DNA from: an uncultured Bacilli bacterium
GTDB taxonomy: Bacteria > Bacillota_I > Bacilli_A > RFN20 > CAG-826
NCBI GenBank assembly: GCA_944363535.1
Contig: CALVUG010000007.1
Coordinates: 1-41,071, forward strand
Reading direction: 5' to 3'
DNA length: 41,071 nucleotides
Part shown: positions 6,532 to 32,717 of the stretch, piece by piece
Numbering within the stretch: the stretch's first letter is position 1
Layout of the letters: each line of letters begins with the position of its first letter
Made by a program: the position numbers and the translations under genes
The notes under the pieces: model-generated
Seen by the model: the letters and a program-made list of their open reading frames with translations, nothing else
Told to the model about the DNA's origin: nothing
Databases searched by the model: none

Positions 6532-8586
6532 TTAATTAATCTTACTACAAACGTCCCACGCACCCCAGATGACCGTCTTTAAATTGCCGACTTTATTCGC
6601 GTCACCGATGATGTGAACGTGAGCTTTTTTCTTCCTTAAAGGATTAGGATGATAACCGATACAAGAGATGACATCATCGCATGGAATTTTAATTTTCTTT
6701 CCATCTTTATCTAAAATATCGACGTAATCTTTTGCAATTTCGACGACTTTCGATTCTAGATAAACTGGTACTTCTTTCCATTTGAAATAATCTCTTAGAT
6801 AACTTGAATTCGCTAGGCAAAGCCCAGATTGCGCCATCAGATCATTTTTCATTTCGACGATGATTGGTTTCTTACCTTGTAAATGCAAATCGTAAGCGAT
6901 TTCACATCCCGTTAGACCCCCACCGATGATGACGACTTCTTTACCAACTTTCTTACCTTTTAGGTAAGTTAAAGCATCCATCGCTAATTCGCTTCCTGGA
7001 ACATGAAGATGATTAGCCTTCGCCCCAGTCGCGATGATGACTTCATCCGCTCCAAGATTTGTGACATCTTTTACTTCGTAATTAAGATGAACATCGATAT
7101 TATTCTTCTTAATTTCACGTAAGTACCAATCTAATAATTCACGGTCTTTTTCTTTGAAAGATGGTTTAGAAGCTTCCACCCACACACCACCAAGATGATC
7201 GCTCTTTTCATAGATGATAGGAGTATGGCCTTTCTTCTTTAACACTAAGGCGGCTTCCATACCACCGATACCGCCACCGACGATAGCGACGATCTTTGGA
7301 TGTTTCGATAATTTTAAATTGTAAGGTTTACGATTCATCGTCATCGGATTAAGAGCGCATCTTGACATGCTCTTCACTTCTTTCAACGATTCATCGTTTG
7401 CAACACCTTTATAATGTGCCATGGAAAAGCAGCCGTTATGGCAAAGAATACAAGGCTTAATATCTTTGATATTACCTTCTTTCATCTTAGAAATCCACGC
7501 ACCATCGGTAAGGAATTGACGAGCGACACCCATACCATCAATTTCATGATTTTTAATCGCTTCACTAGCGGTAAAAGGATCCATTCTACCAGCCGCTACG
7601 ACAGGAATATCGACGAATTTCTTAATATGTTTCACATCTTCTAAATTGCAATTCGTTGGCATGTATCCCGGTGGATGAGCCCAATACCAAGCATCGTAAG
7701 TCCCATTATCGGCATTGAGCATGTCGTAACCCGCATCTTGTAAATATTTCGCCGCTTTTTCTGATTCTTCCATGTCTCTTCCCACTTCTTTAAATTTCTC
7801 ACCAGGAAGAGCGCCGCTACAGAAGCCTTTCGTCTTCGAAGTGACTGAATATCTTAATGAGACAGGGAAATCTTTCCCGCAAGCTTCTTTGATGGCTTGT
7901 ACGACTTCGACAGCGAAGCGGTAACGATTTTCAAATGAACCACCGTAAGCATCTTTTCTAAAGTTCGTATACTTCGTCGTGAATTGATCTAATAAATAAC
8001 CTTCGTGCACAGCGTGAACTTCCACTCCATCCACACCTGCTTCTTTACATAACTTCGCCGTTTTAGCGTAAGCTTCGACTAGTTTATGAATTTCTTTTAC
8101 TTTCATCTCGCGACAAGTAATATCTTCCGCCCACCTAGAAGGTAATCTAGAAGGTGAAGCCGTAAGATAAGAAGCATTGATGAAAGGCTTACATAAAAAA
8201 CCTAATGGTTTACACTTTAAAAGTAACACTAATGGTTTATTAATAGCAAAAGACCTACCGAAACCAGCCGTTAACTGAACGAATAGTTTTGCTCCTTCCT
8301 TATGGATTTCATCCATAAATGGTTTAAGTTTTTTAAACATTTTCTTATTTTGATAAAGCCATCTTCCTAAGATTGGATCTTTCAAAGGAGCGATGCCAGG
8401 AATGATTAAACCAACATCATGTTTAGCTCTTTCTAAGAAAAAGTTCGCGGCTGTTTCATCGAAACTATTCGGTCTCATCCAGCCAAAAAGTGAAGTTCCG
8501 CCCATCGGACATAAAACGATACGATTTTTAATCTCGACGTTTCCAATTTTCCAAGGGGTAAATAGAGGTTTTAAATTTTCATCCAT
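6532..8586 (-). CDS. Old Yellow Enzyme family NADH:flavin oxidoreductase / enoate (dienoyl-CoA type) reductase
   Basis: 684 residues with three modules: an N-terminal FMN TIM barrel (1-370), a [4Fe-4S] segment with Cys379, 382, 386 and 410, and a C-terminal FAD/NAD(P)H domain (about 430-684; GGGIGG at 437 and GGGLTG at 555). The barrel motif HAVHEGYLLDQF (191-202) is typical of the enoate-reductase and BaiCD-like branch. The family transfers NADH hydride via FAD, Fe-S and FMN to activated C=C bonds (dienoyl-CoA, cinnamate, bile-acid enones, TMA); the substrate here is unknown. The spacing between the third and fourth cluster Cys (23 residues) is larger than in FadH. It is single, with a TATAAT and AGGTAGG upstream and its own terminator. 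It is likely a cytoplasmic electron sink. Confidence 0.88.
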   Translation of the reverse strand: MDENLKPLFTPWKIGNVEIKNRIVLCPMGGTSLFGWMRPNSFDETAANFFLERAKHDVGLIIPGIAPLKDPILGRWLYQNKKMFKKLKPFMDEIHKEGAKLFVQLTAGFGRSFAINKPLVLLLKCKPLGFLCKPFINASYLTASPSRLPSRWAEDITCREMKVKEIHKLVEAYAKTAKLCKEAGVDGVEVHAVHEGYLLDQFTTKYTNFRKDAYGGSFENRYRFAVEVVQAIKEACGKDFPVSLRYSVTSKTKGFCSGALPGEKFKEVGRDMEESEKAAKYLQDAGYDMLNADNGTYDAWYWAHPPGYMPTNCNLEDVKHIKKFVDIPVVAAGRMDPFTASEAIKNHEIDGMGVARQFLTDGAWISKMKEGNIKDIKPCILCHNGCFSMAHYKGVANDESLKEVKSMSRCALNPMTMNRKPYNLKLSKHPKIVAIVGGGIGGMEAALVLKKKGHTPIIYEKSDHLGGVWVEASKPSFKEKDRELLDWYLREIKKNNIDVHLNYEVKDVTNLGADEVIIATGAKANHLHVPGSELAMDALTYLKGKKVGKEVVIIGGGLTGCEIAYDLHLQGKKPIIVEMKNDLMAQSGLCLANSSYLRDYFKWKEVPVYLESKVVEIAKDYVDILDKDGKKIKIPCDDVISCIGYHPNPLRKKKAHVHIIGDANKVGNLKTVIWGAWDVCSKIN

Positions 8587-15159: not shown

Positions 15160-16035
15160 TTAATTGGAAGTAGGGAGGTATTGTTGATAAGTAACTTGAC
15201 CTTCGGGCGATACAATCTTTTCGAAGTAGATGGTCGTATGATGATCATCATCATCGCCTAAGCGGCAACCGATGAGGTTTTTACCGTCGCGGTTTGTAAG
15301 GAAGAAAGTCATTTCGTATTCACTTCTTCCACTTTCCATCTCAAGCGAGACTTCACGACCTTCAATTTCTAAACTATATTCGTAAACTTTACGACCATTT
15401 TGAACGAGGGTGTAAGCAAATTCAGTTTCGCCACGTTCAATTTCTTGTTCGACTAAGATGTAAGAACTATCATCTAAGATGTAACGGAAGTTAACTTCGT
15501 ATTCATCGTCTTCTAATTCTTTTTCACCTCTCATGCGATAGGTGACACCATCAACGAGGATGACTCCTTCGATGAAAGATTCTTCTTCACGTTCATGACG
15601 GTCATCCCAATCATCATCATCGTCATCATCATCTACCTTGATCGTTTCGTTATAATACATCGTGATAGTTGAAGTTTGCATATTGATATCTGTATAAGTG
15701 ATAACTTGTTTTACTTCGTAATTAGGATCATCGCTCGTCATCACTTCGGTATTAGTGAGTAAGCTTTCCCCTTTGAGCGCACTTTCGATCGTCGGTAAGT
15801 AAGTATTTAACGAATCGATGAGGCTTTGATCAACTTGGATAGCTTTTCTTAATCCTTGTGGATTTGCGGTAGCGGTAGCTTCGCTTAATAAGCCAATGGA
15901 GGTGACAGCCTCGAAAGCGTATACAGATTCTTTAGCCGTATTCCCATTGATGAAATCAGTGCCACTAGGGGAACCACAGCCGACTAAGAAAGTCGCGGCT
16001 AATGCTGGTAAGATAAGAGTTTTAAGTTTTTTCAT
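15160..16035 (-). CDS. Acidic lipoprotein paralogous to the neighbouring anti-sigma ectodomain
   Basis: 291 residues with a lipoprotein signal (MKKLKTLILP..., lipobox LVGC, Cys20), thus surface-anchored. The mature part shares a domain order with the anti-sigma-like protein two positions upstream: a helical NPQGLRKAI...LDSLN.Y block, a YYNET strand, an Asp tract (eight Asp followed by WDD), then repeated acidic beta-strand motifs (EIERGETEFAYT, NGRKVYEYSLE). No known family is recognised. The length of the Asp tract, encoded by GAT repeats, could bind Ca2+ or other cations; this is inference. The start at 16035 is chosen because it begins the signal peptide and has AGGAAA before it; an upstream in-frame start is possible. 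It has its own promoter-like element (16062-16089) shared with the ECF sigma gene. Confidence 0.7.
   Translation of the reverse strand: MKKLKTLILPALAATFLVGCGSPSGTDFINGNTAKESVYAFEAVTSIGLLSEATATANPQGLRKAIQVDQSLIDSLNTYLPTIESALKGESLLTNTEVMTSDDPNYEVKQVITYTDINMQTSTITMYYNETIKVDDDDDDDDWDDRHEREEESFIEGVILVDGVTYRMRGEKELEDDEYEVNFRYILDDSSYILVEQEIERGETEFAYTLVQNGRKVYEYSLEIEGREVSLEMESGRSEYEMTFFLTNRDGKNLIGCRLGDDDDHHTTIYFEKIVSPEGQVTYQQYLPTSN
15611..15633. repeat. GAT/ATC trinucleotide tract encoding poly-Asp
   Basis: A run of ATC-type triplets (GAT on the coding strand, with one GAC) that encodes the eight-Asp stretch of the lipoprotein. Trinucleotide tracts can change length by slippage without breaking the frame. 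Confidence 0.6.
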
Positions 16036-16061
16036 ATTCAGTTTCCTGCCTTTCACCTATA

Positions 16062-16089
16062 TAACAATTGAACTTAGATGATTTATTGG
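16062..16089 (-). promoter_or_regulatory. Promoter-like element shared with the ECF sigma gene (copy 2)
   Basis: Minus strand CCAATAAA, 9 nt, TTCAATTGTTA, in the leader of the acidic lipoprotein gene. Upstream is TTTTT. An almost identical element lies before the ECF sigma gene (17864-17890). It may be the -35/-10 pair recognised by that sigma factor. Confidence 0.55.
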
Positions 16090-16190
16090 AAAAATTTTTA
16101 AAATTTAGAAAATATTTTATTTTTATTTACATAGTAAATAACTTTTTTTATAATTTTTAATATTTTTTTTATAAAGAGAATAAAAGTAAG

Positions 16191-16214
16191 AAAAAGATCA
16201 CCCGCAGGTGACCT
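16191..16214 (-). terminator. Intrinsic terminator of the sigma/anti-sigma operon
   Basis: Minus strand AGGTCACC-TGCG-GGTGATCT (8 bp, one wobble) followed by TTTTTC. It separates the ECF operon from the lipoprotein gene, which must therefore have its own promoter. The 16090-16190 stretch is very AT-rich and shows no gene. Confidence 0.75.
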
Positions 16215-16240
16215 TTCTTAATTTATTTTTTATTTATTAA

Positions 16241-17326
16241 TTATTTACGTGCGTATGTTTTATCGTAATTAACATTAGAGTCGACGTAATGATAGCTTGC
16301 CCCTTCATCTTCGATGCAAACTTGCATAGTGGATCTATCATTACTTAACGTATAATCGATTTCTAATTCAGAATTATTAAATTTTCTTACGAAGAAATCG
16401 CCATCCACATTAGAGGAATTACGATCAAAGGTTTCAATTTCGACGTAATCACCATCTTCTTCTTCAAAGCTTAGTTCGATTTCGCTCACTTCACGTCCAT
16501 TTTCGTAACGCGTATATTTATAAGATTCTTCGTATTCGTTACTTTCTTGTTCCACTTCTCTTTCCACTTCTAAGTAGTGCGAGCGATTTTCATCGAAATA
16601 AATTCTTAAATTTAAAGCATATTCTTGTTCGTCGCTTTCTTGCTCTAATTCGCGGCTTCCTATAACTTCGTAAGTAGAATTATCTTGAAGCAACATGAGA
16701 CCATCTAATCTAAATTCTTCTTCAATTTCATCTTCGTCCCAATCATTATCACCAGAAAGTTTTGATTCATTGAAATAGAAAATAGTCGACTTATCGTCGT
16801 AAATCATCTTATATTCATAAGATTCGTAGCCTGCATCTTCATTGTAATAAACTTCATATTTATCTTCTAAACGCATGTTCGCATCGAGCATCTCTTCTGC
16901 AGTGTACATGTAAGGATTGATCATCTGAACTTTTTCATCTAACGTATCGACATCGATGACTTTTAAAGACTTACGTAACCCTAAGGGGGAAGAATTATCG
17001 ATATGCGTGCTTAAATTCGCTGCACTTAAAACGCCAAATGCAATTTCATTTGAGCCCGCGAGTGTAACTGGACTAGGAGGAATAGGAGGAATGTTTGGAT
17101 CTTCTCCGTTCATGCCAAACTTAATTCCAACAGGAATGACAATAGCCGCTACAACGGCGAAAGATAAAGAAGGTATCAAACCTTTAAGTAGCTTAGAATG
17201 TTTCTTACTCTTCGCTTCTTTCTTTTCAAGATAAGAGGCTAAAATTTTTGACGATTGCACATTAGTGAGCTTCGTTTCGTCAATTTGCTGAAGAATATCT
17301 TCTCTTAATTTCTTTTCATCAAGCAT
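16241..17326 (-). CDS. Membrane-anchored anti-sigma-like protein with acidic ectodomain
   Basis: 361 residues. A short cytoplasmic N-terminus (1-46, helical, basic) is followed by one transmembrane helix (47-69) and a large, very acidic outside domain. The topology and the 8-nt overlap with the ECF sigma gene fit an anti-sigma factor, but the zinc motif HxxxCxxC of many anti-sigma factors is absent, so the sigma-binding segment is of another type. The ectodomain is homologous to the neighbouring lipoprotein: SPLGLRKSLKVIDVDTLDEK, FYFNES, an acidic DNDWDED stretch, then E-rich strands (EVEREVEQES, NGREVSEIELS). No known family is recognised. The ectodomain may sense cations or envelope stress; this is inference. 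Ends before a terminator. Confidence 0.7.
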   Translation of the reverse strand: MLDEKKLREDILQQIDETKLTNVQSSKILASYLEKKEAKSKKHSKLLKGLIPSLSFAVVAAIVIPVGIKFGMNGEDPNIPPIPPSPVTLAGSNEIAFGVLSAANLSTHIDNSSPLGLRKSLKVIDVDTLDEKVQMINPYMYTAEEMLDANMRLEDKYEVYYNEDAGYESYEYKMIYDDKSTIFYFNESKLSGDNDWDEDEIEEEFRLDGLMLLQDNSTYEVIGSRELEQESDEQEYALNLRIYFDENRSHYLEVEREVEQESNEYEESYKYTRYENGREVSEIELSFEEEDGDYVEIETFDRNSSNVDGDFFVRKFNNSELEIDYTLSNDRSTMQVCIEDEGASYHYVDSNVNYDKTYARK

Positions 17327-17882
17327 ATTGGCCTCCTAACTTCTTCTCTAACTTTTTCCTCGCTTCTTGATAGAGCCAGGTAAGCGTGCCGACAGGAATA
17401 TTTTTCATCTTAGAAATTTCTTTGAAGGAATAATCGCCTAACACTTTCAAAGTGAAGACCATATATTCCTTATCGTTTAATATTTCTTCGATTTGTTTCA
17501 GTAATATTCCTCCATCCGCTGGTAAGTCGAGATGATAACTAGAATCTTCTAACGTGCGATGGAATTCTTCTTCCCTCTTCATCTTCTTCAAATGGTTAAA
17601 GGAAAGATTTTTAGCCATCTCGGTCAGAAACGGTAAGATTTTCACCGAGTGATGAATCTTATCGATCTTTTCAAGTAGAGCGAGGTAAGTCTCTTGCATC
17701 AAGTCCTCAGCAATCATCTGGTCACGGAAGATGACGTAAATCGTGACGTAGATGCGCTTTTTCGTTAGATTGTAGATCGTATCGAAGCCACGCATATCGC
17801 CGGACTTGAGGGAGAGGAACGCTTGCTCTAAGATGAGGCTAGTTTCTTCATCTCTCACTTTATTAACAATTGAATCGGCCAT
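17319..17882 (-). CDS. ECF-type RNA polymerase sigma factor
   Basis: 187 residues with sigma region 2 (about 25-95, AEDLMQETYLALLEKI) and region 4 (about 125-185, LKVLGDYSFKEISKMKNIPVG, an HTH). Regions 1 and 3 are missing, as expected for extracytoplasmic-function sigma factors. It overlaps the anti-sigma-like gene (TATGCTTGA). The first ATG (17882) lies inside the promoter-like element shared with the lipoprotein gene, so translation may in fact begin at an in-frame GTG (17858) or another downstream codon; region 2 would still be complete. No SD supports 17882. The element suggests that the sigma factor drives its own operon and the lipoprotein. Confidence 0.85.
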   Translation of the reverse strand: MADSIVNKVRDEETSLILEQAFLSLKSGDMRGFDTIYNLTKKRIYVTIYVIFRDQMIAEDLMQETYLALLEKIDKIHHSVKILPFLTEMAKNLSFNHLKKMKREEEFHRTLEDSSYHLDLPADGGILLKQIEEILNDKEYMVFTLKVLGDYSFKEISKMKNIPVGTLTWLYQEARKKLEKKLGGQYA

Positions 17883-17890
17883 TTTGTTGG
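17864..17890 (-). promoter_or_regulatory. Promoter-like element shared with the lipoprotein gene (copy 1)
   Basis: Minus strand CCAACAAA, 8 nt, TTCAATTGTTA, preceded by TTTTTTT as in copy 2. It overlaps the annotated ATG of the ECF sigma gene at 17882. Confidence 0.55.
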
Positions 17891-17946: not shown

Positions 17947-18108
17947 TTATTCTTTCAAGACAAAATTTTCTTTGGAAGCACCACACATTGGGCAAACCCA
18001 ATCTTCGGGAATATCTTCGAATTTGGTGCCTGGAGCAATACCGCCATCAGGATCGCCTTTGGTTTCATCATATTCGTAACCACAAAGTAAACAGACGTAG
18101 ATTTTCAT
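17947..18108 (-). CDS. Rubredoxin
   Basis: 53 residues. Two Cys knuckles CLLCGY (Cys6, Cys9) and CPMCGA (Cys39, Cys42) bind one iron; the spacing and the segment [20 protein letters not shown] between them are diagnostic. It is a small cytoplasmic electron carrier used with peroxide or superoxide reductases and other flavoenzymes. AAAGGAG precedes ATG 18108. It follows the hydrogenase gene on the same strand by 50 nt, and a TATAAT (18151-18156) could give it a promoter of its own. Confidence 0.95.
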
Positions 18109-18158: not shown

Positions 18159-19592
18159 CTATTTTATCGGCGAAAAGATTTCAATTGCTTGTTCAATTGT
18201 TTTTTCTTTCGCTAGTTTTCCATATTTATCGACATCATTTTTATCGCGCATTTCATGCGTTAAGCAACATGGCCCACCGATACAGCCACCAATGCAGCCC
18301 ATACCTTCGACGAAATTGACATCTAATTGACCACGACTAACTTGATTTAAACCATTTTTTACATTTTCTAAACCGTCAAAATTGATAGGCTTCAATTCAA
18401 AATTAGCGTTTTGTTCTTTAAGCGCCTCGATGATAGCGTCTTTGACGCCACCAGCTCTTGCAAAAATTCTTCCAAAATAAGATGCATTATCTAAAGGACT
18501 TTCTTCTAATGTAGTCATATCGATACTGCGCGAATCAATTAAAGCTTGTAATTCTTCAAAAGTTAAGGTCACATCGACGTAATCACTAACTTTATCAATT
18601 GTTTCTTTCTTTTTAGAAACGCAAGGTCCAATGAACATAACTTTGGCATCAGGATGTTCTTCTTTCACCCATTTAGCGATCGTCGCCATCGGGGAAAGTT
18701 GATGGGAAATCTTATCAGCGTACTTTGGGAAATATTTTTGAACGTAAGTCACAAAAGTTGGACAACAAGACGTACAAACAAAGCCTTTATCGACTAGTTC
18801 TTTCGCTTCATGATATGCGACCATATCTGCACCTAAAGCCGCTTCGATGACATCCTGGAAGCCAAGTTTTTTAATGGCAGTAATAACTTGACCTAACGTC
18901 GCATATTTAAATTGTGATGAAATCGAAGGCGCCACGATAGCGAAAACCGGATATTTCGTCAAATTTTCAGAATTTTTTAAAATGTCGATAGCTTTCGTAA
19001 TATAACTTTTATCCATAATAGCCCCGAAAGGACATTGATAGACGCAGGCTCCGCATTGAACACATTTACTATCATCAATTTTAGCGGCGTAATCTTCACC
19101 CATCGAAATAGCTTTAACTTTACAAGATTGTTCACAAGGTCTTAAAAAATTTGCGATCGCATCATATTGACAAGCTCTCGCACACATCCCGCAATTGACA
19201 CATTTTGTTTTATCGATCCTTGCTTGTCTTGTTTTTTCATCAAAACTTATTGCATGTAGCCTACAAGCTTTTTCACAGCGATGAGCGATACAACCTCTAC
19301 ATCTATTAGTGACTTCATAGCCACCTAAAGGACATTCATCGCAAGCGATATTAATAACTTCGACGACATTATCGATATTCTTATTTCCGCCTAAGGCAAG
19401 TTTCATACGTTCCAAAACGATAGCCCTTTCTTTATAGATGCAGCAACGCATCGAAGGCTTTGGTCCTGGAACAATCTTCTTAGGAATTTCATTGTAGTCT
19501 TCAGTTAGAGTTCCATCCCAATAAGATCTCGCTACTTCTTTTAAAACTTTATATTTAAGTTCCTGAACATTCGTATCAAATTTAGGTTCCAT
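18159..19592 (-). CDS. Group B-type monomeric [FeFe] hydrogenase
   Basis: 477 residues. Several ferredoxin-type [4Fe-4S] clusters fill the first 200 residues (for example C131-x2-C-x2-C-x3-C and C177-x2-C-x2-C-x3-CP), then the H-cluster domain: L1 TSCCP (274-278), L2 IGPC324VSKK, L3 EGMGC433IGGC437IGGPC. The L3 form (GGC..GPC) and L1 without the Trp of group A point to the group B family. It likely exchanges electrons between ferredoxin and H2. It needs the HydEFG maturases, which are not in this window. It is the last gene of the rex-adhE operon, 27 nt after the phosphatase; SD AGAGGT. Confidence 0.85.
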   Translation of the reverse strand: MEPKFDTNVQELKYKVLKEVARSYWDGTLTEDYNEIPKKIVPGPKPSMRCCIYKERAIVLERMKLALGGNKNIDNVVEVINIACDECPLGGYEVTNRCRGCIAHRCEKACRLHAISFDEKTRQARIDKTKCVNCGMCARACQYDAIANFLRPCEQSCKVKAISMGEDYAAKIDDSKCVQCGACVYQCPFGAIMDKSYITKAIDILKNSENLTKYPVFAIVAPSISSQFKYATLGQVITAIKKLGFQDVIEAALGADMVAYHEAKELVDKGFVCTSCCPTFVTYVQKYFPKYADKISHQLSPMATIAKWVKEEHPDAKVMFIGPCVSKKKETIDKVSDYVDVTLTFEELQALIDSRSIDMTTLEESPLDNASYFGRIFARAGGVKDAIIEALKEQNANFELKPINFDGLENVKNGLNQVSRGQLDVNFVEGMGCIGGCIGGPCCLTHEMRDKNDVDKYGKLAKEKTIEQAIEIFSPIK

Positions 19593-19619
19593 ATTTTACA
19601 CCTCTTTATTTATTTTATA

Positions 19620-20798
19620 CTAAAAATAACTAACTTTTATCTTCTTTCCCATTTTTTCTAAACATTTCGCTAATTCTTCAATAAGGCGCATTTTAATTTT
19701 AATATTGATGTGCATATCTTCACTTTGATGAGCGGGATTAATCGCACAGCCGACGTAAAAATCGATATCAGTCGCATCTTCAAATAGATATCTAGCGATA
19801 CGCGAAGCCCCATCTTCATGGAAAGACCAATAAAAATATTTCTCATTTTTATCTAAGACATCTTTTGCGTATTCCAAAACCCTATTGATCGTGACGACAC
19901 CTTCGGTCACCAAATCGACACCTTCAATTTTTGCGATAGGCGGGATTTCTTTATCTAAATAATCTAAAGCATAATCTAATGGTTTATTTAAATATCTAGA
20001 AACAATACTAGAAGTCGTTCCTCCACTGACGATATGAACACCATCTTTAGCGAAAAATAACGATAGCATCATATTATCATCTTCTCTATTTGAAGCAGGT
20101 CCGATCATCAAAGAAACTTGTTTTCTTTCTCTTAGCCTTAATACCGCCGCGGTCGTATCATCGCCTGGTTTTCTTGCGTAAAGTTCATCACAGTGATCCA
20201 CTAACATCGTCGCAAGAGCCTTAGAAGAATATGACTTATCATAGAGAGTTGAAACGAATGATTTAACTTCATCCATACCCCAACCAAAATTTAATGTTTC
20301 ACCAATTCCAGCATGCATCACCCCATCACTCATTAAGACAATCGTGTCATAAGGCCTAAATTCAAATTTAGCTTTTTCAATTTTCTTTCCTTCGATGAGC
20401 GAAGTTTCCCACCAAATAGGAAAAATCTTTCCTTCTCTTAAAATGATAGGTGTCGGATTATCGTAATTATAAATTTCGACATTTTTAAAATCGCTAACTT
20501 TGACGATGGAAAATGTCGAATAAGCGACACCTCTTACTTTACAGACCGGTAAGGTCATCGCAATCGTTTGGACGCATTCTTCAATAGGAACGTTATTAGA
20601 CATCATCGTTGCAAGCATCTCGCTAGTCAGAGTCGATAAAATATTAGCTTTGACTCCACTTCCTAAACCGTCCGCTAAAACAAGGATAGAAGTTTTTTCA
20701 TCAGGCGAAAGAATTTGCACGTTGTCGCCACAAAGTTCTTCACCGACGTGATTTCTTGATAGACTAGCGATTTCTACGACGTAACGATTAGTGATCAT
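19620..20798 (-). CDS. SpoIIE/PP2C-type serine/threonine phosphatase with a C-terminal domain of unknown function
   Basis: 392 residues. The PP2C/SpoIIE metal sites are visible as LADGLGSG (D43-G44), MSDGV (D158-G159) and GDDTT (D213-D214). Residues about 225-392 form an extra domain with the motif VSGGTTSSIVSRYL that I cannot assign. The gene lies between the sensory and the group B hydrogenase and overlaps hydS, so it is the natural output enzyme of the H2 sensor; the target protein is unknown. The start at 20798 is chosen: AGAGG is 6 nt away, against 3 nt for the adjacent ATG at 20801. Confidence 0.8.
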   Translation of the reverse strand: MITNRYVVEIASLSRNHVGEELCGDNVQILSPDEKTSILVLADGLGSGVKANILSTLTSEMLATMMSNNVPIEECVQTIAMTLPVCKVRGVAYSTFSIVKVSDFKNVEIYNYDNPTPIILREGKIFPIWWETSLIEGKKIEKAKFEFRPYDTIVLMSDGVMHAGIGETLNFGWGMDEVKSFVSTLYDKSYSSKALATMLVDHCDELYARKPGDDTTAAVLRLRERKQVSLMIGPASNREDDNMMLSLFFAKDGVHIVSGGTTSSIVSRYLNKPLDYALDYLDKEIPPIAKIEGVDLVTEGVVTINRVLEYAKDVLDKNEKYFYWSFHEDGASRIARYLFEDATDIDFYVGCAINPAHQSEDMHINIKIKMRLIEELAKCLEKMGKKIKVSYF

Positions 20799-22476
20799 CA
20801 TCTTCCTCTAATGTCTCTTTTAAAGACGATAAAGCGACTTTAGTTTCAGCCGCACTTTCACCTAAAAGCGAAGCAATCTCTTGCACTGCGCGCATATTCT
20901 TTTTAATCACTTCATCGGTAATATCCACAGATTTTTGTACAATTTCTAATCTTTTTGCGTGTTCCATTTCACTCTTTGTTACATCTCTCATCAAAACGAT
21001 TAAGATATGATATTTTTCATCATAGTTAACCGATAAAGTAACATATTTATTATAAGCCGTAAGATACATCTTTCTTTCGTAAATCCTTTCGCCTCCTAAA
21101 GCTTCAGAGAACGGGGTAGGATCCAAAATCAAAGACACATCTTTTTGAATTAAATCACGAGGAGAATGCACTCCTAAAATTAAGCACATTGCGTGATTGA
21201 TAAGTTGAATTTTAAAATTTTCATCCAAGACCATTAAACCATTTGGTGAATTAGCAACAATCTTATCAGAAAATGATTGAGCTTTAGCCATAAGGAATGG
21301 TAAACACATTTCCACGACCGCTTTGCCTTGGATGATAGCGATAGCTTTTTCAAGACAAGAATCATAGCCACAAGAGCCGCAATTAAGTCGATTTTTAGGA
21401 TCAACTTTATCCATCTTTTTAAATGTAGCCTGAATTTCTTCTTCGCTTGGTCTTGCGTGTCTTACATTATATGGTTTATAGTCATGGAAAGCTTCTTCAC
21501 TAGTTAAAATTGGCTCTTTAAAATCAAGTCTACCAGCACTTTGTTTCACAAGTAATGAGGAAGCCACTAAGTTGTGCGATTTACCATCGATAATTGGTCC
21601 ATTCACGCATCCACCATGGCAAGCATTAACTTCGATAAAACAATGATGAATTTTACCAGCTATGACATCTTCTAGAACTCGTTTAACTTCTTCTACTCCA
21701 TCGACGAAAACGTAGGAATAAGCATCATTTTTCTTTTCCATCGTTTCTAAAATACCGCTGCTAATTGGAAAAAGGCGAGCTTTAGAATGTTCTTTAACTT
21801 CAATCTTCTCATCTTTTTCTAAACTGATTTCTTTCTTTACTAAAAGATGATCTAATTCAAGGAAAGTAATGGCTCCATCGATAAAATTTGCGTATACATC
21901 AGCTTCGTCTTTCTTAGCAATACATGGTCCGATAAATATTACTTTTTTATTTTCGCCTAATCTTTTCTTAATATCTTTCGCATGAGCGATCATCGGAGAA
22001 TCGATAGGCGCTAAATAAGGAAGAGCTTCTTTATAATGCTTTTGAATGAGTAAATTAATCGAATGGCAACAAGAAGAAATTAAAACATCGGGAGCGTTAG
22101 ATTCTAACATTTCATCGTAGGCTTTTTTCGTAATAGTTGCCCCGATGGCAGTTTCTTCCGCTTCTTTAAATCCAAGCGCTAATAAGGCTTTTCTTAGAGA
22201 AGAAAAATTCACCCCGTAATTAGCAATAAAGCTTGGGGCGACACTAGCGACACAATCATAATTTTTTAATAAATTTAAAACTTTTTCTTCATCATTTCTT
22301 ACTACTTTTAATTCTTGCGGACAAACGATGTAACATCTACCACAAAGAATACAATCTTCGTGGATGATGCTAGCTTTATTAGAAGCAAAAGAGATAGCTT
22401 TAATTGGACAATGTCTGATACATTTATAACAATTTTGGCAATCTTTCGTCCTCGATTCTAAGCAGGGAGAAGCCAT
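20788..22476 (-). CDS. hydS: Group C-type sensory [FeFe] hydrogenase with PAS domain (HydS-like)
   Basis: 562 residues. Order: two ferredoxin-type clusters (Cys13-Cys52), an H-cluster domain with L1 SSCCH (134-138), L2 IGPC185IAKK and L3 C286HGGC290VNGP, a [4Fe-4S] segment C366GSC369GYDSC374 with Cys391, a PAS domain (about 405-510), and a helical signalling tail. L1 ends in His rather than Pro, as in non-catalytic sensory enzymes. The protein has no kinase or methyl-accepting domain; the signal presumably passes to the co-translated SpoIIE phosphatase (14-nt overlap). SD AGGAGG before ATG 22476. H2-sensing function is established only for relatives by inference (HydS of Ruminococcus albus), so it is a prediction here. 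Confidence 0.85.
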   Translation of the reverse strand: MASPCLESRTKDCQNCYKCIRHCPIKAISFASNKASIIHEDCILCGRCYIVCPQELKVVRNDEEKVLNLLKNYDCVASVAPSFIANYGVNFSSLRKALLALGFKEAEETAIGATITKKAYDEMLESNAPDVLISSCCHSINLLIQKHYKEALPYLAPIDSPMIAHAKDIKKRLGENKKVIFIGPCIAKKDEADVYANFIDGAITFLELDHLLVKKEISLEKDEKIEVKEHSKARLFPISSGILETMEKKNDAYSYVFVDGVEEVKRVLEDVIAGKIHHCFIEVNACHGGCVNGPIIDGKSHNLVASSLLVKQSAGRLDFKEPILTSEEAFHDYKPYNVRHARPSEEEIQATFKKMDKVDPKNRLNCGSCGYDSCLEKAIAIIQGKAVVEMCLPFLMAKAQSFSDKIVANSPNGLMVLDENFKIQLINHAMCLILGVHSPRDLIQKDVSLILDPTPFSEALGGERIYERKMYLTAYNKYVTLSVNYDEKYHILIVLMRDVTKSEMEHAKRLEIVQKSVDITDEVIKKNMRAVQEIASLLGESAAETKVALSSLKETLEEDDDH

Positions 22477-29654: not shown

Positions 29655-32600
29655 TCAATCTTCAAATAAGGTTATTTGCTCATCATCTTCAAAATCTTTA
29701 ATATTGCTTACTACTTGCATAAAAAGTTTGATGATGAGTTCATAATCTTTTACTTGATCATTAGATATTCTAATGAGTTTGACACCATTCCTAGCGCATA
29801 TAGCTTCTTTATCTCTGTCTCGTTTAATACGATTGATGTCACCAATATGCTCTCCGCCATCGATTTCAAAAACGACAATAGGAAACGGTTTAGCAAATAA
29901 ACTATTCTTAACTTTAACAACTAAATCGAATTCCATGTAACGGAAAAATTTTTGAATCGATTCATCTTCTAAAGGTAAAGCTTTCAATAAAGGAACATTA
30001 CGCTCGATATAAAATTTCGTTCTTTTCCTCATAAAAAACGGTTTAATTGTCATGAAGAACTCTTCTTCCGATTTCGAATCATTCGATAAATTAGTAATTT
30101 TTAGATGTGGCGAAGAAGTTAATTTCATCTTACCATTTTCATAGACGTAATCAGAAAGAGCTCTTACATCGCTATTTTGTTTATCTTTAGTTTTGATATC
30201 AATCGCACTTTTATCACCCACAAAAATAAAATGTTGTTTAGCGCGTGACACTGCGACGTTAATTAGTTCAGCATTTTCAGCTATCCAATCCATCGTTTTC
30301 TTCGCTGTTTTTAAAGATATCGCACTCGACATGATGATAGTGTTTTTTTCTGAACCTTGCAAAGTATGAATCGTTCCCGCTCTTGCGACATCTTCACTTA
30401 TACCCGCATCTTTTAATAGGCTATTAATAAGACGCGCCTGGTGAACGAATGGAGTGATAATTGCCACATCTTCATAATGATTATTTTTGATTAAATCAAC
30501 TATCGACGAAGCTTCGTCAAGATAAGCATTAGATTGACGCATTGGGCGATTTTTGACATCGACGTAGACGAGTGAGCCTTCGTTATCATTTAATATTTTA
30601 AGTTTTTCTTCATAAAATCTTTGGTTGACAAAATTAGCGATCTTTTTTGCACACCGATAATGATAATGCAACATGATTCTTTTTGAATTCGCATCTAAGG
30701 AAAGTAAGGATGAAAGAATCGAATTTTCGACGTAATTATATTCCTTTTTAATACTATATTTTTCCATCAAGTAATCATTTAAATCTAATTCGATGACGCT
30801 TACGGGTTGTAATTGGTTCGTGTCTCCTACTAAAAGTAAAGCCTTCGACCTCGCTAAAGGGATTAAAGCACTTGCGATATTAGCCTGCCCTGCTTCGTCC
30901 ATGATGCATAAATCAAAACTTGAAGAGTAAGCGCTACCGAGCTTTTCACTCGATAAATTCGTCGATAAGACGATCGGAAAAACATCTAAAAGATGTTCGA
31001 GGTTCTTTTCATTCCTTAAATAACGATTGAACTTCGTCACCGCATCTACATCATCTAATATCGCTTCTAATTCTTCATACATTGGCTTATTTAACTTTTT
31101 GATGTTGAAATAATATAAGTCTTTAAAATAAGTGAACAATTGTTCATTTTCATTGATGGAAATTAAAGAAGCAGTCAAAGCTTCAGGTTCCACTACTTGA
31201 AGTGACATAAGGCTAGTTTCAAGTGATTTAATTTCGTCTTCCGCTCTTCTAATTAAAGGTTCAGCAAGAGCGATATCTTTAATCTTCTTTAAAATCTTGA
31301 TTTTATCTTCAATTTCAATCTTTTCTTCGTAAAGCGATAAGGAAGCTTTTAAATCGTGAAAGTAGGAAAGTAAATTTCTCTTTTCTTTTCTTATCGAAAT
31401 ATCGCTATCTTTTAATGACCTTGCTAAAGCAAAATAATTTTTTAAAAGTTTTAAAGTCGCTTCGATTTCATCGTTATTGCCAAGCCTTAGAAAGGGAGTA
31501 ATAATTTCTTCATTTTTTTCATCTTTAAAACAATCCATTAACTTATGATAAATATCATCGACAGGATGATTGTTATTCGCACACACTAAAACTTTTTTAT
31601 CATTTAAAAGTGCGGATAATAAAGTATTAAAAATTGTTTCCGTCTTTCCAGTGCCAGGAGGCCCCTGCACGTAAGTAATTTTTGCATTCATCGCATTAAA
31701 GATGACTCTTAATTGATCGATATTTACTTTATTTTTATCAAAGATGACAATATTTGCTTCTTTTTTTAGATAAGGTGAATTTCTACTCACGCCAAAGAAA
31801 GCTTTTAGTGGTGTATTAAGTTGACCTTTTTGCACCCGTTCATAGATAGCTCCTAAAGTCTCTTCTACCCCGAACGTCAATTGCTTTTTAAGTAAGAAAA
31901 ATGATGGTCTAGTGTTGATCATTTCCCCTTCTTTTTTATTTGCTTCGATAAGGCGAGTAAATTCTTCTTTTCTTGCATCGAAATCTCTAACAAATTCATC
32001 TGGATCCATATCGAGATACATCGATAAATTATATTTTCTTTCGTTGATGAGAAATGACTTATTAATATTTGATTTATTAGCGATACGTAATGTCTTATTT
32101 TTAAAATTCAAATCGACTTCGCGGTAAGCGATAACGTATTGTTTATCATTGATATCTATAGATAAGATGTTGAACGCTAATGTCGAATAGCGATATAGCT
32201 TTTCCGCTTCATTTTTCGATTTGACGAACACTTTCTCTAAAAAATAAATGAATTCTTCATCGTTTAATTGATAAGTTCCCGCCTCCAATATTTTCAAATC
32301 GATACCGTCGAACATCGAAGCATCTTCGACGAATGGATCAGCGTCATTTTTATAGCAATCGTAAAAGTAAGTTAAGACGTTATTATAAGCAAAGGAAGTA
32401 TCGAGCATCGTATTTAAAGCGATATCTTTGCTGAGCCTAGCGAACAAATCATCGCTCGTCGGATAATAGGAATTATCTATGAGCCGTGCGTCGATGATAT
32501 TATCTAATTTCAACCAAACTTTTTTATCGAGACATTCGATACCAAATTTAGGAAAATTGAAGATGTCGACGAGCAAAGTTCTTTTCGATGTATCAACATC

Positions 32601-32717
32601 TATGACTCCAATAGAAAAATAAGTTTGTTCCTTATTCGCATTTAGATAAGTAATATTTAGCCACTTCTCCTGACGAATCGCTTCGCTTATAAGATAGGGA
32701 ACATTTTTAAAAGCCAT
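29655..32717 (-). CDS. SF1 helicase (Dna2/Upf1-like) with N-terminal WYL-like and C-terminal PD-(D/E)xK domain
   Basis: 1020 residues. N-terminus (1-84) resembles a WYL domain (SEAIRQEKWLNITYL ... WLKLDNIIDARLIDNSYY). Helicase motifs: Walker A GPPGTGKT (about 353), DEAG (about 604), GDTNQLQPV, TIHTLQGSE and VAVSRAKQHF, an SF1 COG1112 type. The C-terminal 140 residues carry SEEEFF (883-888), FDLVV (D931) and FEIDGGEH (E951, D953), a Vsr/DUF2726-like nuclease fold. The combination could unwind and cut DNA or RNA and is found in defence and repair contexts; a role here is inference. Single-gene unit; the promoter (32724-32751) puts the transcription start on the ATG. Confidence 0.8.
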   Translation of the reverse strand: MAFKNVPYLISEAIRQEKWLNITYLNANKEQTYFSIGVIDVDTSKRTLLVDIFNFPKFGIECLDKKVWLKLDNIIDARLIDNSYYPTSDDLFARLSKDIALNTMLDTSFAYNNVLTYFYDCYKNDADPFVEDASMFDGIDLKILEAGTYQLNDEEFIYFLEKVFVKSKNEAEKLYRYSTLAFNILSIDINDKQYVIAYREVDLNFKNKTLRIANKSNINKSFLINERKYNLSMYLDMDPDEFVRDFDARKEEFTRLIEANKKEGEMINTRPSFFLLKKQLTFGVEETLGAIYERVQKGQLNTPLKAFFGVSRNSPYLKKEANIVIFDKNKVNIDQLRVIFNAMNAKITYVQGPPGTGKTETIFNTLLSALLNDKKVLVCANNNHPVDDIYHKLMDCFKDEKNEEIITPFLRLGNNDEIEATLKLLKNYFALARSLKDSDISIRKEKRNLLSYFHDLKASLSLYEEKIEIEDKIKILKKIKDIALAEPLIRRAEDEIKSLETSLMSLQVVEPEALTASLISINENEQLFTYFKDLYYFNIKKLNKPMYEELEAILDDVDAVTKFNRYLRNEKNLEHLLDVFPIVLSTNLSSEKLGSAYSSSFDLCIMDEAGQANIASALIPLARSKALLLVGDTNQLQPVSVIELDLNDYLMEKYSIKKEYNYVENSILSSLLSLDANSKRIMLHYHYRCAKKIANFVNQRFYEEKLKILNDNEGSLVYVDVKNRPMRQSNAYLDEASSIVDLIKNNHYEDVAIITPFVHQARLINSLLKDAGISEDVARAGTIHTLQGSEKNTIIMSSAISLKTAKKTMDWIAENAELINVAVSRAKQHFIFVGDKSAIDIKTKDKQNSDVRALSDYVYENGKMKLTSSPHLKITNLSNDSKSEEEFFMTIKPFFMRKRTKFYIERNVPLLKALPLEDESIQKFFRYMEFDLVVKVKNSLFAKPFPIVVFEIDGGEHIGDINRIKRDRDKEAICARNGVKLIRISNDQVKDYELIIKLFMQVVSNIKDFEDDEQITLFED

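Follow-up and report, generated by a model that had tools for sequence, protein, structure and literature searches.

An ECF sigma factor module with a lipoprotein paralogue of the putative anti-sigma ectodomain suggests a self-limiting stress switch in an uncultured Bacilli bacterium

Among described anti-sigma systems, RsiV shows that the ectodomain of an anti-sigma factor can itself be the receptor, with the helices that follow the membrane span controlling site-1 cleavage (PMC4183432, PMC6066255). RsgI_M is a self-cleaving periplasmic domain, known from SigI-RsgI of Clostridium thermocellum (PMC12203970). A separate protein can also guard the sensor, as RseB does in E. coli, where its presence on RseA blocks cleavage by DegS (PMC8103513). 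The locus considered here lies in an uncultured Bacilli bacterium (assembly GCA_944363535.1, contig CALVUG010000007.1, positions 1 to 41,071; this whole stretch of 41,071 nucleotides is referred to as the window) and encodes an ECF sigma factor, a candidate membrane anti-sigma factor and a lipoprotein that resembles the anti-sigma ectodomain. The arrangement suggests a self-limiting stress switch of a kind not yet described; a search of largely open-access papers found no prior description of the module.

The three genes are read on the minus strand from 17882 to 15160 in the order sigma factor, membrane protein and lipoprotein. The lipoprotein gene is separated from the membrane-protein gene by a gap that holds its own promoter-like element. 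The features are as follows:

17319..17882, minus strand: ECF sigma factor gene, open reading frame from ATG 17882, 187 aa
16241..17326, minus strand: candidate anti-sigma factor, single-pass membrane protein of 361 aa, assigned from gene order and an 8-base overlap with the sigma gene
17192..17326, minus strand: cytoplasmic N-terminal helical domain (aa 1-45), putatively sigma-binding, from the model and an N-terminal profile
17117..17191, minus strand: transmembrane segment (aa about 46-70), hydrophobic stretch LKGLIPSLSFAVVAAIVIPVGIKFG, topology inferred from sequence
16244..17074, minus strand: ectodomain (aa 85-361) with a post-anchor helix, a second helix and an antiparallel beta-meander as predicted by AlphaFold2
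15160..16035, minus strand: lipoprotein gene from ATG 16035, mature domain a well-supported paralogue of the ectodomain
17864..17890, minus strand: promoter-like element of the sigma/anti-sigma operon, CCAACAAA-N13-TTGTTA, kept in relatives
16062..16089, minus strand: promoter-like element of the lipoprotein gene, CCAATAAA-N14-TTGTTA, kept in relatives

Some other genes of the window may be recorded here. The sigma gene has a short rubredoxin-like open reading frame (17949-18108, minus strand, read by eye) immediately upstream, which was seen at this position in the genus only and which adjoins a group B [FeFe] hydrogenase (TIGR04105, 549 bits) in the region 18159-22476 (minus strand), with a second hydrogenase-like protein at 20788-22476 (minus strand). 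The 1020-aa helicase-like protein encoded at 29655-32717 (minus strand) has a weak, sub-cut-off likeness to the anti-phage ProA/Hhe and PLuB helicases. A flavoenzyme encoded at 6532-8586 (minus strand) resembles BaiCD and the long-form bilirubin reductase, scoring well below both cut-offs, and its substrate may be a related one.

The sigma factor matches Sigma70_r2 (33.1 bits, cut-off 24) and the ECF superfamily model TIGR02937 (56.7 bits, cut-off 42.9), and its Sigma70_r4_2 score of 25.4 bits lies 0.3 below the cut-off of 25.7. Its best PDB match is SigW (5wuq), and it is a short protein with sigma-70 regions 2 and 4 only, as expected of an ECF (group IV) sigma factor. Translation probably starts at GTG 17858 and not at ATG 17882, because the latter sits between the two boxes of the promoter-like element; the starts of the relatives L005/L006 agree with GTG 17858, which is kept across the genus. 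As this codon begins about 6 bases past the -10 box, the message may be leaderless.

The membrane protein has the layout of a membrane anti-sigma factor: its gene is directly downstream of the sigma gene (and beside it in relatives too), and it has one hydrophobic stretch followed by an extracytoplasmic domain, a topology inferred from sequence. Its N-terminus was modelled as two helices with moderate to low confidence. A profile of this region matches the anti-sigma factors of L022 and L029 (E-values: 8e-8 and 1e-6) despite their differing ectodomains, and others weakly. The first-pass annotation had proposed an ECF sigma factor with a membrane anti-sigma factor that lacks the usual zinc motif. 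The family matches, the 8-base overlap and the gene order kept in relatives support a module of this type, and the H-x3-C-x2-C motif of ZAS factors was indeed absent from each of the 25 N-termini examined. The ectodomain is acidic and 277 aa in length. By sequence, the membrane protein matched no PDB chain and had no Pfam match to DUF3298/DUF4163 (the RsiV family) at E-values up to 1. None of the window proteins matched RsgI_M (PF23750), for which relatives that carry this domain score 43-87 bits.

The lipoprotein has a signal peptide, KKLKTLILPALAATFLVGC, read from the sequence, and a lipobox, LVGC, with the cysteine codon at 15976-15978; a lipobox is also present in the lipoproteins of relatives. 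Its start is probably ATG 16035, and GTG 16056, which falls within the likely ribosome-binding stretch, is probably not the real start. No Pfam match to MucB/RseB was found for the lipoprotein, and neither was among the listed Foldseek PDB matches of its model.

When the ectodomain and the lipoprotein were compared with BLASTP, they aligned over about 240 residues with 31% identity (E-value: 2e-11). The score of 53.1 bits was reached by none of 4000 shuffles, the best of which gave 25.8 bits (composition shuffles, n=2000) and 32.0 bits (local 20-residue shuffles, n=2000), and the reversed sequence gave 18.9 bits. Because the shuffled and reversed scores are far lower, acidic composition is not the cause of the likeness, although both proteins are very acidic (pI about 4.1, net charges of -46 and -38, Asp+Glu above 20% in each). 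That the two are true paralogues is therefore well supported, which agrees with the first-pass annotation on both their kinship and their acidity. The ordered set of motifs that it listed (GLRK, YYNE/FYFNE, a D-rich stretch with WD, and E-rich strands with NGR) is present in both proteins, but GLRK and WD turn out to be local to the genus. The elements common to both proteins across lineages are the post-anchor helix AFxAxSxxxLL, NxYLxxxExxL, YYN, a Gx4-5DGxxYxxxG strand pair and VExExExxExxFxY.

AlphaFold2 models were built from an 18-row alignment for the lipoprotein (m6b97330a74d9, pLDDT 74.3 with values near 90 in many strand blocks, pTM 0.70) and the anti-sigma factor (m4947a9288251, pLDDT 70.3, pTM 0.66). 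In each model, two helices lead into a meander made up of 12-14 antiparallel strands. Based on this order of elements and on homology, the two proteins are predicted to have the same fold, where the first-pass annotation had named unrelated predicted folds as the result that would speak against it. It had also assigned the ectodomain to no recognized family, and we reached the same result: neither the single proteins nor the 18-row profile had a match above cut-off in Pfam or NCBIfam or a significant match in PDB sequence searches. Foldseek gave no PDB match at E-values ≤ 0.001 for either model, the best being 7q1u_B for the lipoprotein (E-value: 0.07) and 4ghb_B for the anti-sigma factor (E-value: 0.012); TM-scores normalized by query length were 0.13-0.16. 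At these thresholds, neither a known fold nor a known ectodomain family was found and, judged by sequence, the family is undescribed.

A common element, CCAAYAAA-N13/14-TTGTTA, is found with small variations upstream of the sigma and lipoprotein genes in six related loci. In the 906 kb genome to which the window belongs, CCAAYAAA-N13/14-TTGTT occurs exactly twice, at the sigma operon and at the lipoprotein gene, and the reversed control does not occur at all. The element is present twice each in G001 and G003, while G002 has the two and one more, and it sits at the same two places across the genus. In other lineages the first box is retained and the second varies (TTGTATA, CGTATA). A composite pattern precedes 19 of 21 sigma genes and 18 of 25 lipoprotein genes, and none of the 126 other genes of the same loci; as this pattern was drawn up after the loci had been seen, the background count and not the hit count serves as the control. 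In L032 and L036, no element precedes the sigma gene, and there the lipoprotein gene precedes it in the same direction. The shared promoter element is thus well supported, and the sigma factor would be predicted to use both copies. The lipoprotein had been proposed as a likely regulon member, and this stands, given that its gene carries the element of the sigma operon and that the element is found nowhere else in the genome at the strict setting.

With one mismatch allowed, 8 sites were found in this genome (7 beyond the exact one), compared with 3 in the reversed control. Further targets were sought with the -10 variant YGTWT and rejected, as both of its matches were inside open reading frames and had no suitable gene downstream. 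Relatives whose genomes are larger also have the element before genes for subtilisin-like (S8) proteases (L135, L139, L154), a trypsin-like lipoprotein in Acholeplasma granularum (L133), DUF2202 proteins (L148, L154/L156) and a second RsgI_M lipoprotein (L141). The proteases of L135, L139, L154 and L133 are candidate regulon members and perhaps site-1 proteases, and these extra targets indicate an envelope or protein-damage response. Two sigma-70 genes in all, one of them that of the ECF sigma factor, and one M50 site-2 protease of the RseP/RasP type were found in the genome of the window. No penicillin-binding transpeptidase was found in it, and the cell is therefore probably wall-less, with an exposed membrane. 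As the genome is 96.6% complete, absences from it are provisional. Loss of peptidoglycan has been described in several related lineages of uncultured Bacilli (PMC10868615).

Within the family and order, a single-sequence search detected relatives in 20 of 58 genomes, and within the phylum the domain profile matched 53 of the 295 genomes sampled. When named genomes were searched for the sigma factor, the module was also found in Izemoplasma-type genomes (L030, L031 and L034, including Izemoplasma zrk2) and in a Clostridiales MAG (L028). The order sigma factor, anti-sigma factor and lipoprotein was read directly in many relatives (e.g., L001-L006, L009 and L015), and is rearranged in a Clostridia MAG (L024), UBA5603 (L032) and HGW (L036). 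As in the window, sensor and lipoprotein resemble each other pairwise within the loci L024, L028, L030, L031, L032, L034 and L036. The arrangement thus recurs among wall-less Bacilli, Izemoplasma included, and in some Clostridia. In a tree of sensors and lipoproteins, the sequences are grouped by type inside two large groups and not overall. One ancient duplication splitting all sensors from all lipoproteins was rejected (forcing the sensors into one group costs 44.6 log-likelihood units, p-AU 0.00013), to be read with the caution that some rows of this tree are long-branched. The pair therefore arose, or was homogenized, more than once, as would be expected if the two were functionally linked. 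A. granularum (L023) and a relative (L027) combine a sensor of the new domain with an RsgI_M lipoprotein, and no further copy of the new domain was detected when these two genomes were searched with the profile. The ECF promoter element is also present at the genes of the RsgI_M lipoproteins (L023, L027 and L141; E-values: 2e-24 to 6e-19), and in other ECF systems related to this one (L021, L022, L025, L026, L033 and L035) RsgI_M serves as the sensor domain. The lipoprotein slot therefore takes sensor-type domains and not only the partner's own.

The best explanation for these observations, to which we give an even chance, is a self-limiting envelope-stress circuit in which the lipoprotein competes for the stimulus or partner of the sensor. 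The ECF sigma factor would be kept at the membrane by the adjoining single-pass protein until a stimulus from outside the cell reached the acidic ectodomain and the anti-sigma factor was inactivated, probably by regulated proteolysis involving the single RseP/RasP-type site-2 protease of the genome. The freed sigma factor would then transcribe from two promoters, those of its own operon and of the lipoprotein gene. The lipoprotein, which has no tail for binding sigma, would place a paralogue of the sensing domain on the membrane that also carries the sensor, and would take up the stimulus or a shared partner; it would thereby be both the response and the brake, returning the sensor to rest. 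The sequence supports the three genes, the paralogy, the restriction of the element to two places at the strict setting and the recurrent pairing; sigma binding, proteolysis, use of the promoters and competition by the lipoprotein are the predicted steps. The first-pass annotation had suggested that the two proteins may bind the same ligand or each other, with the lipoprotein as competitor or decoy. A decoy for the same ligand cannot hold everywhere, because A. granularum and its relative have an RsgI_M lipoprotein. The additional candidate targets in some relatives (S8 or trypsin-like proteases, DUF2202 proteins) and the one-mismatch sites of this genome also count against the explanation. 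Family lipoproteins are also found in L007 and L008, where the stretch read contains no sigma or anti-sigma gene and no CCAAYAA box lies upstream, and these likewise count against it. More tentatively, and with some doubt, the whole regulon of the sigma factor may be itself and a lipid-anchored copy of its sensor domain, the sole product being a competitor, and the pairing may have been repeatedly rebuilt or homogenized in wall-less Bacilli and some Clostridia, with exchange of sensor domains (the new fold or RsgI_M) in the lipoprotein slot.

The lipoprotein might also be a co-regulator that putatively binds the ectodomain and shields the anti-sigma factor from the first protease in the manner of RseB and RseA, in which case its sigma-driven induction would restore the guarded state. 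Paralogous domains often pair, and the post-anchor helix, which lies near the usual place of site-1 cleavage, is recognizable in both proteins; the block of DegS by RseB offers a precedent, and the RsgI_M swap in the lipoprotein slot is easier to reconcile with a partner role than with a shared ligand. Against this reading, the sequence of the lipoprotein is not that of an RseB/MucB protein (Pfam gave no such match), and RseB is not known to be a paralogue of the ectodomain of RseA. We regard such a co-regulator as unlikely, though worth serious attention.

It is rather improbable that the lipoprotein is a protective output only, such as an acidic coat on the cell surface that would capture cationic peptides or ions or cover the naked membrane, with a kinship to the sensor that is historical and involves no feedback. 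Repeated pairing or homogenization together with a shared promoter element would not be expected from history alone, and the sensor of A. granularum is far less acidic (pI 5.9). Such a role would suit the very acidic character of every lipoprotein of the family (pI 4.05-4.45), the probable lack of a wall in a genome without a detected penicillin-binding transpeptidase, and the lipoproteins of L007 and L008 with neither sigma nor anti-sigma gene nearby. Shared low-complexity composition, with the promoter element as a chance match in AT-rich DNA, can hardly account for the data: Asp and Glu do exceed 20% in both proteins and the genome is AT-rich, but a composition artefact was ruled out by the shuffles, the domain profile finds matches across genomes down to an E-value of 1e-69, and the promoter background is zero both in the 126 other genes and for the reversed pattern in this genome.

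Wall-less, genome-reduced Bacilli keep very few regulators, and here one alternative sigma factor was found, with two detected target promoters. If confirmed, this would be a minimal natural feedback circuit with a sensor whose own copy tunes it. Envelope-stress sensing in uncultured gut Bacilli and Izemoplasma would also become approachable for the first time, with a named promoter and protein family that are testable in the cultured A. granularum.

Like the locus in the window, SigV-RsiV of Bacillus subtilis and Clostridioides difficile has an ECF sigma factor and a membrane anti-sigma factor with helices after the membrane segment and an ectodomain, which is the receptor in RsiV and the putative one here. 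The ectodomain of RsiV is DUF4163/DUF3298, to which the window protein has no match, and SigV-RsiV does not have a lipoprotein paralogue of the sensor as its one detected co-regulated gene. SigI-RsgI is related through RsgI_M, which is the anti-sigma ectodomain in several related ECF systems and the lipoprotein domain in Acholeplasma. It differs in that the window ectodomain has no RsgI_M match, the window sigma factor is of the ECF type and the N-terminus of the membrane protein is predicted to be helical and is not the RsgI N-terminal domain. RpoE-RseA-RseB of E. coli shares an ECF sigma factor, a single-pass anti-sigma factor and a separate extracytoplasmic regulator with the window, whose genome also encodes an RseP-type protease. 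In contrast to the locus described here, where two promoters were found at the strict setting and the RseB family is unmatched, the regulon of RpoE is large.
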